From contig NC_015676.1 in NCBI RefSeq assembly GCF_000217995.1, positions 1,719,708-1,783,707 of the forward strand: 64,000 nt of DNA. Reading direction: 5' to 3'. The stretch comes from Methanosalsum zhilinae DSM 4017. GTDB taxonomy: Archaea; Halobacteriota; Methanosarcinia; Methanosarcinales; Methanosarcinaceae. The translations under genes and the position numbers were made by a program. Positions 6,438-32,001 of the stretch are shown piece by piece (positions within the stretch are counted from its first letter, which is position 1; each line of letters begins with the position of its first letter). The notes beneath the pieces were generated by a model that was given only the letters and a program-made list of their open reading frames with translations, was not told where the DNA came from and searched no databases.

Positions 6438-8300
6438 TTATTTCTTATCCTCATCCACAACTTCATAATCTGCATCAACCACATCTTCATCTGGCTGGGA
6501 TTCTGAACCTGCGGTTTCTGCACCTCCCTCCTGCTGTTGCTGCTGGGCTGCAGCTTCCTGAGCTTTCTGGTACATTGCACTGGAAACCTCATATACTGCA
6601 TTCTGGAGGGATTCGGTCTTCTTCTTGATCTCTTCGATATCATCGCCTTCAAGGGCCTTTCTGAGTTCAGATATTTCAGACTCTACCCTGGATTTCTGAT
6701 CATCGGTAGCAATATCTTCAGCTTCCTTTATTGTCCTTTCAGCAGAGTTTATCAGGGATTCAGCAGTGTTGCGGGTCTCAACCGCTTCCTTACGCTGTCG
6801 ATCCTCTTCGGCATGCTCTTCAGCATCCCGGACCATCTGCTCAATCTCCTCATCTGAAAGGCCTCCTGGCTTGTCAATGGAGATCGATTGCTGCTTGCCG
6901 GTTCCCAGGTCCTTTGCACTCACATGCAGGATACCATTGGAATCTATATCAAAGGTAACCTCGACCTGCGGTACTCCCCTTGGTGCAGGAGGAATTCCTT
7001 CCAGGGTAAAGCGTCCCAGTGTCTTGTTGGCAGAGGCTATACCTCGCTCACCCTGCAGAACATGTATCTCCACAGAGGTCTGGTTATCGGCTGCTGTAGA
7101 GAATATCTGGCTCTTCTTTGTGGGTATGGTGGTATTGCGCTCGATCAGTGGTGTTGCAACATCACCAAGGGTCTCAATACCAAGTGTCAGTGGAATTACA
7201 TCCAGAAGCAATACATCCTTCATCTCACCTGCCAGAACTCCGGCCTGTATTGCTGCACCCATTGCAACGGCCTCATCTGGATTGATATTCTTGTAAGGTT
7301 CCTTGCCAATGAATTTCTTTACGGTCTCATAGACTGCAGGCATTCTGGTTGAACCACCGATCAGAAGCACCTTGTCAATATCCTTTGGAGTAAGTTTTGC
7401 ATCACTTAGGGACTGGCGCATTGAATGAAGTGTCTTCTCTATCAGATCCTCGGTCATCTTCTCGAACTGGGTCCTTGTTATATCAATATCAATGTGTTTT
7501 GGCTGGCCGTTTGAGTCTGCTGTGACAAACGGAAGATTGATGTTGGTGGTTGTAACCCCTGAGAGCTCGATCTTTGCCTTTTCTGCAGCATCGGTTATTC
7601 TCTGGAGTGCAGACCTGTCTTTTGAAAGATCGATACCTTCTTCCTTTTTGAATTCAGAGACAACATAGTCCACTATCTTCTGGTCGAAATCGTCTCCTCC
7701 AAGTTTGGTATCACCACTGGTTGAGAGCACCTCGAATACACCATCGCCCAGCTCCAGGACGGATACATCAAAGGTACCTCCTCCAAGATCATAGACCAGT
7801 ATCTTCTGATCACCTTCAGACTTATCAAGACCATATGCAAGGGATGCTGCAGTTGGTTCATTGATTATTCTCTTAACTTCAAAGCCTGCAATCTTTCCTG
7901 CATCCTTTGTTGCCTGGCGCTGTGAATCGTCAAAATAGGCAGGTACCGTGATCACAGCTTCATCGATTGTTTCCCCGAGATAGGACTCTGCATCCTCTTT
8001 CATTTTCCTGAGTATCATTGCAGAGATCTCCTGGGGAGTATAATCCTTGTCCCGCAGGGTAACCTTATAATCAGCTTTTCCTATGTGCCTTTTGATAGAA
8101 TATACGGTGTTCTCGGGATTTGCAATGAGCTGGCGTTTTGCAACCTGTCCCACCAGCTTTTCACCCTTCTTTGAAAAGCCAACAACTGAAGGAGTTGTCC
8201 TTCCACCCTCTGCATTGGGTATAACTGTTGGTTTTCCGCCTTCAATAACTGCCATACATGAATTGGTTGTACCAAGATCAATTCCTAATATTTTTCCCAT
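6438..8300 (-). CDS. dnaK: DnaK (Hsp70) chaperone
   Basis: A 620-residue Hsp70. The ATPase domain begins [15 protein letters not shown], with the phosphate-2 and adenosine motifs [13 protein letters not shown] and [13 protein letters not shown]. It is followed by the linker [15 protein letters not shown], the peptide-binding domain, and a lid ending in a Gln-rich and acidic tail ([17 protein letters not shown]). The ATG at 8300 is chosen over one five codons upstream because an AGGAG lies at the right distance before it and the product then begins like other DnaKs. It works with GrpE and DnaJ encoded on either side. Confidence 0.97.
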
Positions 8301-22956: not shown

Positions 22957-24948
22957 TCAGCGTATCATGTATCTGATATCAGCACAGACACTGGGATAGG
23001 CCCAGGCCATTTCCTTGAGTTCCTGGCGTGTGATGCCCTTTCGCATTGCCATTGAGAAGATATTGATCACCTCTTCTGCCCTGTGGCCAAGTATATGGGC
23101 ACCAACTATCCTGTCACTTTCCTGATCCACAATGATCTTGGAAGCTGCATACTTTTCATTCACCTGCCTGCTTGAGTACCAGTCTGTTCGGTCATGAGAG
23201 ATTACCTGATGACCCTTTGTGACCTTTCTGCTGTCAATTCCGGCTGAGGCCAGGGCAGGAATTGTGAAAACTACTGCAGGAATGGCTGTGTAATCAACTG
23301 TCTTGCGGTTGCCGCCGGTGATATTGTCTGCCACTGCAAATGCTTCAAGATTGGCTGTGGGGATCAGTTTGGGACCATTCTCATTGCAGTCACCTGCTGC
23401 ATATACTCCCGGATTGGAGATGCTCTGCATGTATTTGTTCACCACAACTCCTGCAGGACCTGCTTCCACATTACCCTGTGCCAGATCCAGTTCATCAAGT
23501 GCTGCAACCCTGCCTGCCCCATGTACCACCAGGTCACATGCATAGACCTTACCAGAATCGGTCCTTACAAGATATCTCTCACCGGTCTTTTCAATTTCTG
23601 TTACAGGAGAACGGGTCACAATCTCAATACCAATCTTTTCTGTAGCTTCTACCAGGATATCCACCATATCAGGATCAAATTCCTTGAGAGCCCTGGAGTT
23701 TCTCTGAAGTATTACCACCTCTGAACCTGCCCTTGCAGCCACATGGGCAAATTCGAATGAAATATAACCACCGCCAATGAACACGATCTTCTCAGGCAGT
23801 GATTCAAGTTCCAGGAACCGGTCACTGCTAATTACGTGTTCCTCACCTTCAATACCCAGTTTAGCAGGCTTTGCACCGGTTGCCAGCACAATGTACCGGG
23901 AGTGGACCTTTTTGCCATCGATCTGCAGCAGTGATCTGCCTGCAAAGCGTGCAGTTGCATGATAGGTCCTGATACCCCTTTCACTAAATTTTCTCTCAAA
24001 CCTTTCAGGTACAGGGTCTGTGAATGTGCGCTTGAACCTCATCAGGGACTGCCAGTCTATACCTATCCCATCAGAACCCTTCAGGCCATTGTCACCCATC
24101 TGCCTTGCCTGTTCCATTATCTCCACTGCACCTGTTAGCACCTTCTTGGGATTGCAGCCTCTCTGGGCACAGGTTCCGCCATAGCTGCGGTTATCCACAA
24201 CTGCCACATCCATTCCTGCGGACCTGCACTTATGTGCCACTGTGGCTCCTGCAGCACCGGTTCCGATTACCACCACATCGTGGTGAATGTCTGCCTGTGT
24301 TTCCTCAACCATCTTCTCCCTTTTCTTCCTGAAGGTCTCAAAGATCTCTATGGCTTCATCATCAGGGACATCGTACCAGTTACGATATACCTGCGCCACT
24401 GCCCTGAAATCATCAGGGATCTCCAGTACCACATAATCATCTGATTCATTTCTGATCTGCAGGCTTGTCCTGCGTCCTGCCACAGGTACTGCAACAACTA
24501 TTCTTTCAGGGTTGCGTTTCCTGCACATGCGTATGGCAGCCATCATGGTAGAGCCCATGGCAATCCCGTCATCCACCAGTATAACTGTCCTTGATTTGAT
24601 ATCAGGCAGTGGCTCACCTTTTCTCAGTACCTTGATGCGCCGGTCAATTTCCCTGATCTGCTCCTTCTTTATCCTCTCAATGGTACCCCTGTCAAGCCAG
24701 AGTGCAGCATCCTTTATGATATAGGTGGTTCCATCCTCTGCAATGGCTCCAAAACCACCTTCTGTATAATCAGGAAACGGTAGTTTTCTTGAGATCAGGT
24801 AGGAGAACTCAGAGTTTAGATATTTTGCCACCTCTGCACCAACCTGGGCACCGCCTTTTGGTATTGTCAGTACCACAGGGTCACTGTTTCTGTATCGGTC
24901 AAGTTTTCTTGCTAGCTGTTCTCCTGCATCCTTTCTATCATGAAACAT
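22957..24948 (-). CDS. Phosphoribosyltransferase fused to a flavin-dependent disulfide reductase
   Basis: A 663-residue two-domain protein. Residues about 1-205 are a type I phosphoribosyltransferase with the PRPP loop VILVDDGIAMGST (about 122-134) and FPKGG-like LTIPKGGAQVGAEVA near 28. After a charged linker, residues about 220-663 are an FAD/NAD(P) disulfide reductase with VVVIGTGAAG (225-234), the redox cysteines GGTCAQRGC (Cys260, Cys265) and the NAD motif FIGGGYISFEFAHVAARAG. The C-terminal His of the usual HPT motif is replaced (AYPSVCADIRYMIR). ATG 24948 is preferred to a TTG at 24981 because GGAG lies 10 bases upstream and overlap with the SDR gene is avoided. The joint function is unknown. 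Confidence 0.88.
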   Translation of the reverse strand: MFHDRKDAGEQLARKLDRYRNSDPVVLTIPKGGAQVGAEVAKYLNSEFSYLISRKLPFPDYTEGGFGAIAEDGTTYIIKDAALWLDRGTIERIKKEQIREIDRRIKVLRKGEPLPDIKSRTVILVDDGIAMGSTMMAAIRMCRKRNPERIVVAVPVAGRRTSLQIRNESDDYVVLEIPDDFRAVAQVYRNWYDVPDDEAIEIFETFRKKREKMVEETQADIHHDVVVIGTGAAGATVAHKCRSAGMDVAVVDNRSYGGTCAQRGCNPKKVLTGAVEIMEQARQMGDNGLKGSDGIGIDWQSLMRFKRTFTDPVPERFERKFSERGIRTYHATARFAGRSLLQIDGKKVHSRYIVLATGAKPAKLGIEGEEHVISSDRFLELESLPEKIVFIGGGYISFEFAHVAARAGSEVVILQRNSRALKEFDPDMVDILVEATEKIGIEIVTRSPVTEIEKTGERYLVRTDSGKVYACDLVVHGAGRVAALDELDLAQGNVEAGPAGVVVNKYMQSISNPGVYAAGDCNENGPKLIPTANLEAFAVADNITGGNRKTVDYTAIPAVVFTIPALASAGIDSRKVTKGHQVISHDRTDWYSSRQVNEKYAASKIIVDQESDRIVGAHILGHRAEEVINIFSMAMRKGITRQELKEMAWAYPSVCADIRYMIR

Positions 24949-24964
24949 GTATGATCTACTCCTA

Positions 24965-25657
24965 TTAGCGATACATTTCAATAGCCGAACCTGTGGGTAT
25001 CACGGATTCAGGCAGACACATCTCCATTACCTGATACGCCACGTCTTCTGGTTTGAGGGGTGGCTCATCATCAAACATTGACCGATACATTCCGGTATCC
25101 ACTCCTCCAGGACACAGTGCATATACTCTTATCTCATCCAGTTCATAGGCAAGTGCCTGTGTGAGTCCTATAACCGCTGCCTTGGATGCACTGTATACTG
25201 CAAGTGAAGGAATACCGTGCTTGCCTGCACCTGATGAAATATTGACTATTCTGCCGCTGTTTCTGGGAACCATGTACCTTAGTGCATGCTTTGTGCACAG
25301 GTACACACCCTTTACATTGGTATCCATTATTGTGTCATATTCCTGAGTGGTGGTTTCAACAAACGGTTTTCTAACAGCAGTACCTGCACAGTTTACCAGG
25401 ATATCTATCTTGCCAAAGCGCTCAGCAGTCCGGGTCATGAGATTTTCAACATCCATCTCAGAGTGTACATCTGTCTGCACTGCCAGTGCCCTGCTACCTT
25501 TCTGTTTTACCATCTCTGCAGTCTGGCTGATCTCAGCCTCAGTTCTTGCAGCAGCAACAATATCTGCACCCTCATCTGCAAGTGCCAGGCATATGGCACG
25601 ACCAATACCTCTACCGGCTCCTGTTACAACTGCAACATGACCTTTGAGTCTCATCAT
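24965..25657 (-). CDS. Short-chain dehydrogenase/reductase
   Basis: A 230-residue classical SDR. Nucleotide motif VVTGAGRGIGRAICLALA (residues 9-26), NAG motif as ILVNCAGTAVRKP (about 86-98), catalytic Ser in NISSGAG near 140 and YSASKAA near 154, followed by CPGGVDTGMY. The alanine and arginine residues after the first strand (AAARTEAE) suggest NADP(H) preference. The gene precedes the phosphoribosyltransferase-reductase fusion by 16 bases in the same direction. It resembles FabG-type 3-oxoacyl reductases, but methanogens make no bacterial fatty acids, so the substrate is unknown. Confidence 0.88.
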   Translation of the reverse strand: MMRLKGHVAVVTGAGRGIGRAICLALADEGADIVAAARTEAEISQTAEMVKQKGSRALAVQTDVHSEMDVENLMTRTAERFGKIDILVNCAGTAVRKPFVETTTQEYDTIMDTNVKGVYLCTKHALRYMVPRNSGRIVNISSGAGKHGIPSLAVYSASKAAVIGLTQALAYELDEIRVYALCPGGVDTGMYRSMFDDEPPLKPEDVAYQVMEMCLPESVIPTGSAIEMYR

Positions 25658-28738: not shown

Positions 28739-30076
28739 TTAAAGCATTGACCTGATATCTGTGGATGCTGTCGGGTACGAGTACGGGAATGTTTTCAGTT
28801 TCTCTGCAGGGATCTTCAGGCGCATTGCCATTGAGAAGATATTGATCACCTCTTCTGCTTCAGGTCCCAGCAGGTGTGCTCCTGCGATCAGTCCGGTCTT
28901 TTCATCAATGATGATTTTGGAGGCACTGTATCCGTAATTTGTGCGTCTTGAGGAGATCCAGTCCTTCTTATCATTGAATATCACCCTGTGCCTGCCCTCC
29001 TGTACCTGAGTGCTGTCAATTCCCACAGAGGCCAGGGGTGGTACTGTGAAGACAACTCCGGAAATGCCGGTATAGTCTATGGGTTCAACATTTCCTTCAA
29101 TGATATTGGTTGCAGCAACTGCTGCCTGGTAGGCTGCTGTGGGTGTGAGCTGCTTGAAGTCTCCGGTCACATCACCTACAGAATAGATATGCTTGCTGGA
29201 TACACTCTGCATATACTCATTGACAACGATCCGGCCCTTCTGAGTCTCAATTCCTGCTTTTTCAACATCAAGATCAGCGGTCTGGGGCACCCTGCCTGCA
29301 CCGTGCACCACCATTCCGGTTATGAAAGAGTCACCATCCTTTGTGGTTACCTGGTATGAATCTCCCAGCCATTCTATTGAAACCGGCTCCTTTTCTGTAA
29401 TCACATCAATTCCTGCGTCCTCTGTTGCCTTTACCACAAGATCAACCATTTCAGGATCAAAGCCTTTTAAAACCCTGCTGCTTCTGTTCAGTATCCGTAC
29501 CTCTGCACCAGTCCTGGCAGCCACATGGGCAAACTCGAATGAGATAAACCCGCCTCCAATAAATGTAATATCATCCGGCAGGATATCCAGTTCCATGAAT
29601 CCGTCACTTGTTACCAGATGTTCCCCACCTTTAATTCCCAGTTCTGCAGGTTTTGCACCGGTGGCAATCACTATGTATTTACCCCGGATTTTGGTGTCGT
29701 TGAATTCCAGGGTGTGACTGTCCAGAAAGCGCGCCCTTCCGTGATAGGTGGCTATTCCCAGGGATTTTAACCAGTTCTCGGTCTTCTCGGCTACAGGGTC
29801 TGTGAAGGTGCGCTTGAATTTGATGAGTTCAGACCATTGGAGTTTGAAGTCGCCTGATACAGGACTGCCCTTATCGATCATTCGCATGGGCCAGTCTATC
29901 ATATCAGCACCTCCCACCAGTACCTTCTTGGGGATACACCCCCTCTGCGGGCATGTTCCACCGTATCCACCGGAGTCTATGACAGCTACACTCATTCCTC
30001 CATCCCTGCACCTGGAGGCAGCTGCCCCGCCTGAAACTCCGGTACCGATCACTATCACATCATATTCTTCTGCCAT
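28739..30076 (-). CDS. Flavin-dependent disulfide reductase-like oxidoreductase
   Basis: A 445-residue class I pyridine nucleotide-disulfide reductase. FAD motif VIGTGVSGGAAASRC, redox cysteines GGTCPQRGC (Cys42, Cys47), NAD(P) motif FIGGGFISFEFAHVAARTG, and the dimerisation domain (about 330-445). The active-site His-Pro-Thr expected near the end is SYPTASTDIRSML here, so the usual acid-base His is absent. It is closely similar to the reductase half of the fusion at 22957-24948 and is probably a paralogue without the phosphoribosyltransferase part. ATG 30076 is chosen because AGGGGTG sits 8 bases upstream. The substrate is unknown. Confidence 0.88.
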   Translation of the reverse strand: MAEEYDVIVIGTGVSGGAAASRCRDGGMSVAVIDSGGYGGTCPQRGCIPKKVLVGGADMIDWPMRMIDKGSPVSGDFKLQWSELIKFKRTFTDPVAEKTENWLKSLGIATYHGRARFLDSHTLEFNDTKIRGKYIVIATGAKPAELGIKGGEHLVTSDGFMELDILPDDITFIGGGFISFEFAHVAARTGAEVRILNRSSRVLKGFDPEMVDLVVKATEDAGIDVITEKEPVSIEWLGDSYQVTTKDGDSFITGMVVHGAGRVPQTADLDVEKAGIETQKGRIVVNEYMQSVSSKHIYSVGDVTGDFKQLTPTAAYQAAVAATNIIEGNVEPIDYTGISGVVFTVPPLASVGIDSTQVQEGRHRVIFNDKKDWISSRRTNYGYSASKIIIDEKTGLIAGAHLLGPEAEEVINIFSMAMRLKIPAEKLKTFPYSYPTASTDIRSML

Positions 30077-30150
30077 TCCCAAAACACCCCTTGAAAAGAA
30101 AATCTATGTACTATTTCGACAGTTTTTGTCATATAGTTTCTGGAACAATG

Positions 30151-32001
30151 TTACCTGTACCTGGCTGCCACACAGGAGTCAAGACACCTGCCACAGGCAT
30201 TGCAGGATTCATCTATCCTGAGACCCTGGTCCAGTGATATGCAGTCTGCAGGGCAGACCTTTGTGCACAGTCCGCACAGGGTACAGTTCCTGATCCTTGC
30301 AAGGTTTGCTGCGGTGGTGTTGAAGATCTCTTCTGCACTTTCCCTGGACCCTGCGCGCACCTTCAGTGATCCTGTGGAGTAATAGGTTATGCTGAACTCA
30401 TCTGTATTGACAGCAATTACTCCCAGTTCCTCTGATGAGGTTATACTTCCCATGACATACATCACTCCCTCCACCTCACTGAAGGTGAGGCCTGTGACGT
30501 TTGCCTCTACTGAATATCCGCCTGCAGTACAGGGGGATGTTCCTGAAACCGAGTGGATTTCAAACCTGCCTTTTCTTTCTGCAGGTTTTGTTTTGATACC
30601 AAGCTTTTCTGCAAGTTTTAGCATTTTCGGAGGATGTGATTGCCAGCGCCAGAAGCCGTGGTCTATGTATTCTTCTGGCAGGGAGTGCTCTGTGGCCCAG
30701 TTTTTGAGGTATGAGTTCCACTGTTGATACATTTGAGGATATTTTTTCTTTACAATCTCATATTCTGCCTGCATGGACGCAGGACACAGATAGCAGCCAA
30801 CCCTTTCAAAACCTGTGTCGTAGAGTGGGTTGTAGTCAAGTTTTCGCCAGTGAATGTACAGCCAGACCTCAATTGCCCTCCAGTTTCGTATTGGGAAGAT
30901 GTTGAGCTGTCCCGGTACAAAGGGGTTCATTTCACTGGCAGGTGTGGATGATCTGCTGAATGATTCGTATCTTCTTTTCCCGTCAATGGTGAGGCAGGTT
31001 CCATTGCTGCTGGAGCAGTTCTCAACTGCCTTTGCTGCCGGTGCAAGCTTGCAGACCTTGCAGCACCACCTGAAATCCTTGCCCGGGGGTCCGAAGCTGT
31101 CAATGTTTTCCCAGAAGGCGTTTCCTGCAGATTCTTCTGTTAAGGGAACTTTCCTTTCTCTGCAGTGTTTTCTGACAAATTCCACAGTATCAGGAAATTC
31201 CAGGCCGGTGTTTACAAAGACTGCCTTTACATCCCTTTTTTTCAGGGCACTGAGTGCCAGGTCAAGTACCACCAGGCTATCCTTTCCTCCACTAAAGGAT
31301 ACCTGTACCGGCATTTTTCTGTACTGTTTCTGGTTTGCAATTCCCCTGATGATATTCATGCCGTCTTTGCCAAGTCTTCGTATGTGGTCTATGTTTGCGG
31401 CTATGATGTCCTCCATTGAGGGGGTTTCTGGAAGAAGCTGTGCACCGGATCTTTTTATATCCTGGATCTTTAGAATTCCTGATTCCTGCCATTCACCTGC
31501 TCCTGCAAGTCCTGTTTCTGTCCGGATCAGGACCGGGGATTCGGGAATGCCTGCAGTGTTTTCCGGTTTGACCTTCTTGCCGCTGAGGTGTCGTCCTGTA
31601 TCCTCTATGGTTACCACATTCTCTGTTGCAGTCTCCAGGAGCAGTGCGGCACCGTCTGCTGTTGGCCTGAACCTGTGCTTTTTTGTGACCGGATCAAACC
31701 ACATGAGCCCGGCTTTGATACCGTCCACAATGACCTCATCACTTCGATCATCCCCTGGTACCTTGTTCAGGAGAATGATCCTGCCGTCAAATGGACTGGT
31801 CCCGAAGTGTTCCATCAGAAGCCCTGATAATAACTGATTTTCATATTCTGATGCAAACCTGATATCTCCAGGTTCTGTCAGCTGGATCCTGCGACCCTGC
31901 CCTTTGCACCTGCAGCATATCCTGTCTGCGAGCGGTGTGTTGCATTCCATGCACCAGTGGATATGTTCACCGGTTCTGCGCTGTTTTTTTGAGTGTTTCA
32001 A
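30151..32001 (-). CDS. PAPS/APS reductase-like PP-loop protein with Zn-ribbon, PUA-like and ferredoxin modules
   Basis: A 616-residue multidomain protein: an N-terminal zinc ribbon (CMEC 17-20, CCRC 29-32), a segment resembling a PUA domain (about 85-160), a PP-loop ATPase of the PAPS reductase family (SGGKDS at 237-242, then CC at 313-314 with Cys317, and GCYLCP near 425), and a C-terminal two-cluster ferredoxin (CTLCGLCTKVCP and CNACGRCLDSC). Methanogen homologues are annotated as PAPS reductases, but an RNA-binding-looking front end and a built-in electron donor also fit a thiolation enzyme. It is divergent from the flippase gene and 74 bases before the disulfide reductase gene. Confidence 0.82.
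   Translation of the reverse strand: MKHSKKQRRTGEHIHWCMECNTPLADRICCRCKGQGRRIQLTEPGDIRFASEYENQLLSGLLMEHFGTSPFDGRIILLNKVPGDDRSDEVIVDGIKAGLMWFDPVTKKHRFRPTADGAALLLETATENVVTIEDTGRHLSGKKVKPENTAGIPESPVLIRTETGLAGAGEWQESGILKIQDIKRSGAQLLPETPSMEDIIAANIDHIRRLGKDGMNIIRGIANQKQYRKMPVQVSFSGGKDSLVVLDLALSALKKRDVKAVFVNTGLEFPDTVEFVRKHCRERKVPLTEESAGNAFWENIDSFGPPGKDFRWCCKVCKLAPAAKAVENCSSSNGTCLTIDGKRRYESFSRSSTPASEMNPFVPGQLNIFPIRNWRAIEVWLYIHWRKLDYNPLYDTGFERVGCYLCPASMQAEYEIVKKKYPQMYQQWNSYLKNWATEHSLPEEYIDHGFWRWQSHPPKMLKLAEKLGIKTKPAERKGRFEIHSVSGTSPCTAGGYSVEANVTGLTFSEVEGVMYVMGSITSSEELGVIAVNTDEFSITYYSTGSLKVRAGSRESAEEIFNTTAANLARIRNCTLCGLCTKVCPADCISLDQGLRIDESCNACGRCLDSCVAARYR

Follow-up and report, generated by a model that had tools for sequence, protein, structure and literature searches.

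Two tyrosine-type flavoprotein disulfide reductases of Methanosalsum zhilinae, one fused to a phosphoribosyltransferase domain, and their place in a widespread clade

The two genes considered here, P0002 and P0003, lie on the minus strand with a spacing of 3.8 kb in a stretch of 64,000 nucleotides (the window) from Methanosalsum zhilinae DSM 4017, whose genome consists of one contig of 2,138,444 bases; their features are collected in Table 1. The P0002 frame opens with a TTG start codon and contains an in-frame ATG at 30074-30076, explaining why an earlier, sequence-only reading of the window had set the boundary of the gene at 30076. That reading also overlooked the N-terminal phosphoribosyltransferase (PRTase) domain of the second paralogue, P0003 (PF00156), which precedes a reductase part that is 51% identical to P0002. 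Residues 13-211 of P0003 match the phosphoribosyltransferase TT1426 (1wd5; E 5.6e-30), of the COG1926 type, with the difference that the PRTase of P0003 is fused to a reductase. The PRPP loop of P0003 carries a Met at a position that is Thr or Ser in the majority of aligned relatives; the close relatives L051-L053 also have the Met. In an AlphaFold2 model of the P0003 monomer (pLDDT 86.2, pTM 0.59) each domain is predicted with confidence, but not the domain arrangement; the best fold match of the model is 8k41, and the rmsd to the best PDB matches is ~9 Å.

Table 1. Positions in the window of P0002, P0003 and the gene directly upstream of P0003
Feature	Position	Strand	Basis
P0002, 447 aa, Tyr-type flavoprotein disulfide reductase	28739..30082	-	ORF, Pfam, PDB match
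P0002 redox CxxxxC (C44, C49)	29936..29953	-	codons checked
P0002 Tyr436 codon, catalytic His column	28775..28777	-	alignment and codon check
P0003, 674 aa, PRTase-reductase fusion	22957..24981	-	ORF, Pfam, AlphaFold2 model
P0003 phosphoribosyltransferase domain, residues 17-198, PRPP loop VILVDDGIAMGST	24388..24933	-	PF00156, E 1e-16
P0003 reductase part, residue 234 onward	22957..24282	-	Pfam
P0003 redox CxxxxC (C271, C276)	24154..24171	-	codons checked
P0003 Tyr662 codon, catalytic His column	22996..22998	-	alignment and codon check
Short-chain dehydrogenase (SDR) directly upstream of P0003, 17-bp overlap, conserved SDR-PRTase operon	24965..25657	-	PF00106

Both proteins show the features of group 1 flavoprotein disulfide reductases, PF07992 and PF02852 together with CxxxxC, and they share with E. 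coli Gor the domain plan, the redox motif and the H403 column; the His-Glu pair of Gor (HPTxxE), in contrast, is missing. When the two sequences are aligned to those of E. coli Gor, RclA and Lpd, the catalytic His is matched by Y436 in P0002 and by Y662 in P0003, while the Glu column five residues further on (i+5) holds Thr in P0002 and Ala in P0003. The sequence-only reading was right in that both paralogues retain CxxxxC but have no catalytic His at the C-terminal site. The C-termini, PYSYPTASTDIRSML in P0002 and AWAYPSVCADIRYMIR in P0003, follow a common pattern, [S/A]YP[T/S]xxxDIRxM. A third reductase homologue of the genome (C1:2080632-2081894) retains IHPSLSE.

Mercuric reductase had been listed in that reading among the enzymes with an HPT histidine, and here it was mistaken, since MerA itself is described as having a catalytically important Tyr in place of GR His467 (PMC4500099) and a signature position, 605, that is Tyr in bacteria and Phe in archaea (PMC8261052). 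This Tyr of MerA is thought (PMC4500099) to help hand Hg(II) over to the inner cysteines. In our alignment the Tyr of P0002 and P0003 also falls on that of four plasmid MerA proteins, which, however, keep Glu at i+5. Because MerA has Tyr at the His position, the proposal of a different chemistry or substrate was overstated: the change points to known MerA-like Tyr chemistry, not to an unknown one, and a relative that has been both solved and assayed exists (8k40/8k41).

This relative, GbsMerA of Gelidibacter salicanalis, is the best PDB match of P0002 (8k40, E 2.9e-106; next match 2e-58) and the one characterised member that we found of the clade described below. As reported in PMC10587081, it reduces Hg(II) in measured assays, Tyr437 and Ser442 replace the His-Glu pair, the Y437F mutant is inactive, Tyr437 is assigned by the authors to metal transfer, and the gene sits in an ArsR-MerT/P operon. 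Like P0002 and P0003, GbsMerA has CxxxxC, Tyr for His and an i+5 position without Glu, and its chain stops at the motif, with no Cys pair. It differs in that it has no PRTase domain, unlike P0003, in its operon, genes of this kind not being recognised beside P0002 or P0003, and in two further residues: Asp47, which follows the second redox Cys, becomes Ile50 in P0002 and Asn277 in P0003 (the Asp is found in 83 of 99 clade rows and thus is not strict), and at the position of the gate, Tyr174, P0002 has Phe but P0003 has Tyr. In view of the missing Asp47 and of the altered Tyr gate in P0002, the methanogen enzymes may have shifted to another thiol-bound substrate.

The clade was sampled with the best 80 loci from a scan of genome contigs that gave at least 541 relatives, the ranking being based on similarity to the protein of the window and not on mer content. 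A full frame is present in 78 of these (L137 and L172 are broken), and together with the two window proteins, 11 sequences of genomes within the family, 7 of plasmids and GbsMerA they make up 99 rows, which include some identical sequences. In the His column 87 rows have Tyr, 10 Phe and 2 His; the Glu column holds Ser in 91, Tyr in 5, Thr in 2 and Ala in 1, Glu never being kept, and the residue after it is Asp in 93, Glu in 4 and Asn in 2. A CC pair within the last 12 residues was found in none of the 99. The rows with Phe include the Methanohalophilus sequence L154 and three close to it. We considered whether the Phe members might show the Phe/Glu compensation of archaeal MerA, but they keep Thr313, not Glu (Thr in 98 of 99 rows). 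His is present in L141:6001-7338 (VHPAESSDI) and L192:6001-7347 (VHPSGASDI), in motifs that are otherwise the same, and the former gene lies after a merA.

A 92-row tree, computed by a quick method and with long outgroup branches, unites these sequences, including GbsMerA on a long branch, with SH-aLRT support of 99; 17 of the 80 loci and the two broken ones were left out of this tree, the residue counts above being based on all 78. The clade has members in many bacterial phyla and in the Methanosarcinaceae, and P0002 and P0003 are, judged by sequence, members of this known, widespread and already sampled group. The tree thus agrees with the suggestion that the paralogues belong to a separate subfamily, and with 97 of 99 clade members lacking the His a random loss, which had been argued against, does not describe the data. 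Tyr against not-Tyr requires 8 changes on a tree with the motif columns left in. The observation held to be capable of overturning the sequence-only reading, an equivalent His elsewhere near the partner's cysteines, yielded no clear candidate: in four columns (114, 186, 260 and 403) 80% or more of the clade members have His, more precisely 91 to 99 of the 99 rows, and none of these columns is inside the motif. We reject them as a compensating His, column 403 being His in E. coli Gor as well and the other three lying, to judge from the fold, away from the cysteines of the partner.

Canonical MerA proteins resemble the clade in fold, in the Tyr or Phe of the His column (the 605 signature) and, in bacteria, in the company of mer operon genes. 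They are set apart by Glu at i+5, by the C-terminal Cys pair and by their position in the 92-row quick tree, where they form another group (support 95) that includes archaeal L022 and L025, same-order MerA proteins with Phe and the Cys pair. Columns 96-100 hold no conserved Tyr, either in the clade or in the MerA rows, and the column of Tyr264 (Tyr100 of Tn501) was not located. Among the NCBIfam matches listed, none of seven members (P0002, P0003, GbsMerA and four others) reached a cut-off. The top model for P0002 and P0003 is glutathione reductase, with 287.9 and 291 bits, under the cut-off of 480, and the MerA model TIGR02053 gives 264.1 and 276.7 bits against a cut-off of 454.45, which a positive control, the plasmid MerA sharing a plasmid with one clade member, passes with 523.6.

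The PRTase-reductase fusion is a local variant. Among 392 genomes of the phylum the fused frame was found in one, that of Methanosalsum zhilinae, a partial copy in G002 ending at a contig edge. In Methanohalobium (G020, G007) the genes form a compact SDR-PRTase-PEBP-reductase run (L034, L035). At PRTase loci outside Methanohalobium (20 examined of 26 listed), an SDR is directly upstream in 14 of 20 (one SDR being a fragment), while 6 of 20 have PEBP as a neighbour and 0 of 20 the reductase. Since the PRTase operon occurs elsewhere without the reductase, the SDR-PRTase(-PEBP) operon seems old in this group and the reductase a later addition, and the P0003 fusion probably arose after the reductase gene had joined it. 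In a careful tree of 28 rows the closest group to P0003 consists of P0002 and the M. natronophilum copy (93/90); the alternative, P0003 with the Methanohalobium copy, is not rejected by the AU test (p-AU 0.06). We looked for a similar link to SDR genes in bacteria and discarded it, hits being few (four bacterial loci and one plasmid) and SDRs common.

Upstream of P0002, 68 bp away and in the same orientation, lies a PAPS-reductase-like gene with 4Fe-4S domains (30151-32001; NF010366, 855 bits). We do not consider it a functional partner, as it is missing from the stretch around the same-genus locus L033 and is separated by 6-7 kb in the three g11 relatives. Several other observations on the neighbourhoods are recorded here in their own right. 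A glycoside hydrolase family 15 (GH15) gene adjoins the reductase in L036, L038, L123, L157, L191 and L227, with fragments in L180, L181, L184 and L185; such neighbours occur in methanogens, an acidobacterium, Halovulum and plasmid pMR68 (GH15-reductase-reductase-SDR), and possibly serve as a sugar-to-NAD(P)H supply. Eight loci (L037, with the gene at 7089-7793, L039, L040, L041, L125, L156, L161 and L188) have a gene of one and the same cluster directly downstream of the reductase, endonuclease III-like (PF00730) in the one copy tested; the reductases of L039 and L156 are identical. In G006 the reductase gene is in pieces at three distant places (L046, L047 and L048, with residues 3-240, 255-447 and a further 30-131), each accompanied by the same pair of small ORFs, insertion-sequence-like in appearance.

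The 80 loci, 70 bacterial and 10 archaeal, were then scanned by tblastn with mer proteins from annotated plasmids over flanks of up to 6 kb per side, shorter on short contigs. A core mer gene (merA, merT, merF, merB or merC) lies within 6 kb in 24 of the 70 bacterial loci, with merA itself in 18, and the number rises to 32 when merP, merR and GDCCVxC are counted as well; in the other 38, some of which lie on short contigs, the thresholds applied gave no mer-related gene. A looser, ORF-based count gives a core gene in 30 of 80 loci but includes weak reductase paralogues, and we prefer the tblastn numbers. In all 18 loci with merA this gene is upstream of the reductase on the same strand. The mer-linked loci include members of Bacillota, Bacteroidota, Chloroflexota, Cyanobacteriota, Gemmatimonadetes and Pseudomonadota. 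With merA reported in 7.8% of genomes (PMC10587081), linkage within 6 kb is far above chance, the baseline here being a published frequency and not matched random loci.

In five loci (L159, L164, L170, L179 and L186) the reductase occupies the slot of merA, with no merA in the stretch examined; each has merR and at least one mer transport gene besides the reductase. L170 is from Azospirillum brasilense, L179 is a 4-kb contig, and L159 has the order merR; merT-merP-reductase-GDCCVxC-merB. A cyanobacterial locus, L196, with merT and merF on the opposite strand and no merA was kept out of the five. Plasmids were sampled with a bias, H82 and H149 having been chosen after a metal gene had shown and H101 for its strain, which we take to be mercury-resistant, and with this proviso 7 of 11 plasmid neighbourhoods have annotated mer genes (L083, L084, L086, L089, L090, L226, L228), L085, L087 and L229 have other metal-related genes and L227 neither kind. 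The plasmid records label the clade genes merely 'NAD(P)/FAD-dependent oxidoreductase'. In bacteria, then, the clade would appear to serve mercury resistance, helping MerA or replacing it.

The archaeal picture is different: genes of the mer query set were found by tblastn in 0 of 10 loci (flanks of up to 6 kb) and no mer gene was recognised by eye among the translated frames of the window. A MerT profile, PF02411, had no match in the source genome, nor in its own controls, so that this outcome carries no information.

Taken together, we consider P0002 and P0003 to be Tyr-type clade reductases that most likely act, driven by NAD(P)H, on Hg(II) or soft-metal thiolates or on related thiol adducts, a reading to which we assign a probability of roughly 0.6. 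By homology, NAD(P)H would reduce FAD, which in turn would reduce the C44-C49 disulfide, and the resulting dithiol would transfer two electrons to a thiol-bound substrate lying at the si face. There the other subunit would contribute Tyr436', whose hydroxyl would handle thiolate or metal in place of the catalytic His, and, with no C-terminal Cys pair, the metal would arrive as a small thiolate complex. For Methanosalsum we infer both the substrate, Hg(II)/soft-metal thiolates or related adducts, and any role of the PRTase. Caution is suggested by the Halobacterium 'MerA', described as a bis-γ-glutamylcystine reductase without mercuric reductase activity (PMC7278568), a case which makes MerA homology a poor guide to substrate.

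The alternative that fares best, although we regard it as rather unlikely, is that the proteins reduce low-molecular-weight disulfides of a methanogen thiol, which could be coenzyme M, coenzyme A, cysteine or a persulfide, and that the Tyr donates the proton; the bacterial mer link would then reflect thiol recycling under mercury stress, as has been suggested for 'MerK', an occasional name for the glutathione reductase genes of mer operons (PMC11227200). That glutathione reductase is the top, if sub-cut-off, NCBIfam model and that 18 of the 24 loci with a core mer gene also have merA fit this alternative, but the nearest characterised enzyme reduces Hg(II) with a Tyr assigned to metal transfer (PMC10587081), and in L159, with merT, merP and merB and no merA in the examined stretch, something must reduce Hg(II). 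One mer-operon glutathione reductase gene is reported to be raised 3-12 fold by mercury in nodules, together with MerA and MerT (PMC11227200). As described, MerK is like the clade genes a disulfide reductase gene in mer operons, and since it may be the same gene we claim no priority for the mer link of the clade, even though our literature search found no account of an FAD-dependent oxidoreductase downstream of merA in a mer operon.

A diaphorase or an enzyme of the quinone or transhydrogenase type, with disulfide chemistry secondary, seems improbable: M. tuberculosis LpdA and the soluble transhydrogenases do lack the catalytic His, but they are described as missing at least one redox Cys (PMC6296175), and both are present in 99 of 99 clade rows. 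An aromatic residue, moreover, stands at the His position in 97 of the 99. The class also has a His-less member in 2-ketopropyl-CoM oxidoreductase/carboxylase, with Phe-His for His-Glu, and coenzyme M is a methanogen thiol, yet non-disulfide chemistry on a coenzyme M thioether seems very unlikely for a clade that is spread over bacteria and mer operons. We give equally little credence to decaying or inactive copies, for the broken gene of the relative G006 is outweighed by full-length frames in P0002 and P0003, glycine-rich and CxxxxC positions that are invariant across 16 aligned members, a fold of P0003 that is predicted with confidence and 71% identity between P0002 and the M. natronophilum copy.

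Extending the preferred reading of Hg(II) or soft-metal thiolate reduction, we tentatively propose, at somewhat less than even odds, that mercuric reductases have a second, separate lineage in this clade, one that needs no C-terminal Cys pair, has been passed over by surveys and models demanding one and is able to replace merA in merR-merTP-merB operons. The Methanosarcinaceae versions would be found outside mer operons, and Methanosalsum would have fused one of them to a PRPP-binding domain.

For the family, the clade corrects a likely path of mis-annotation, a large family whose genes come after merA at loci from five or more bacterial phyla. It may also substitute for merA, in which case counts of mercury reducers that require the Cys pair of MerA could miss it, and the operon with merB and without merA (L159) offers a direct test case. 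For Methanosalsum, the P0003 fusion provides a handle on a phosphoribosyltransferase without an assigned function and, if the proposal of a second lineage is true, the reductase could be linked through this fusion to nucleotide or PRPP status.
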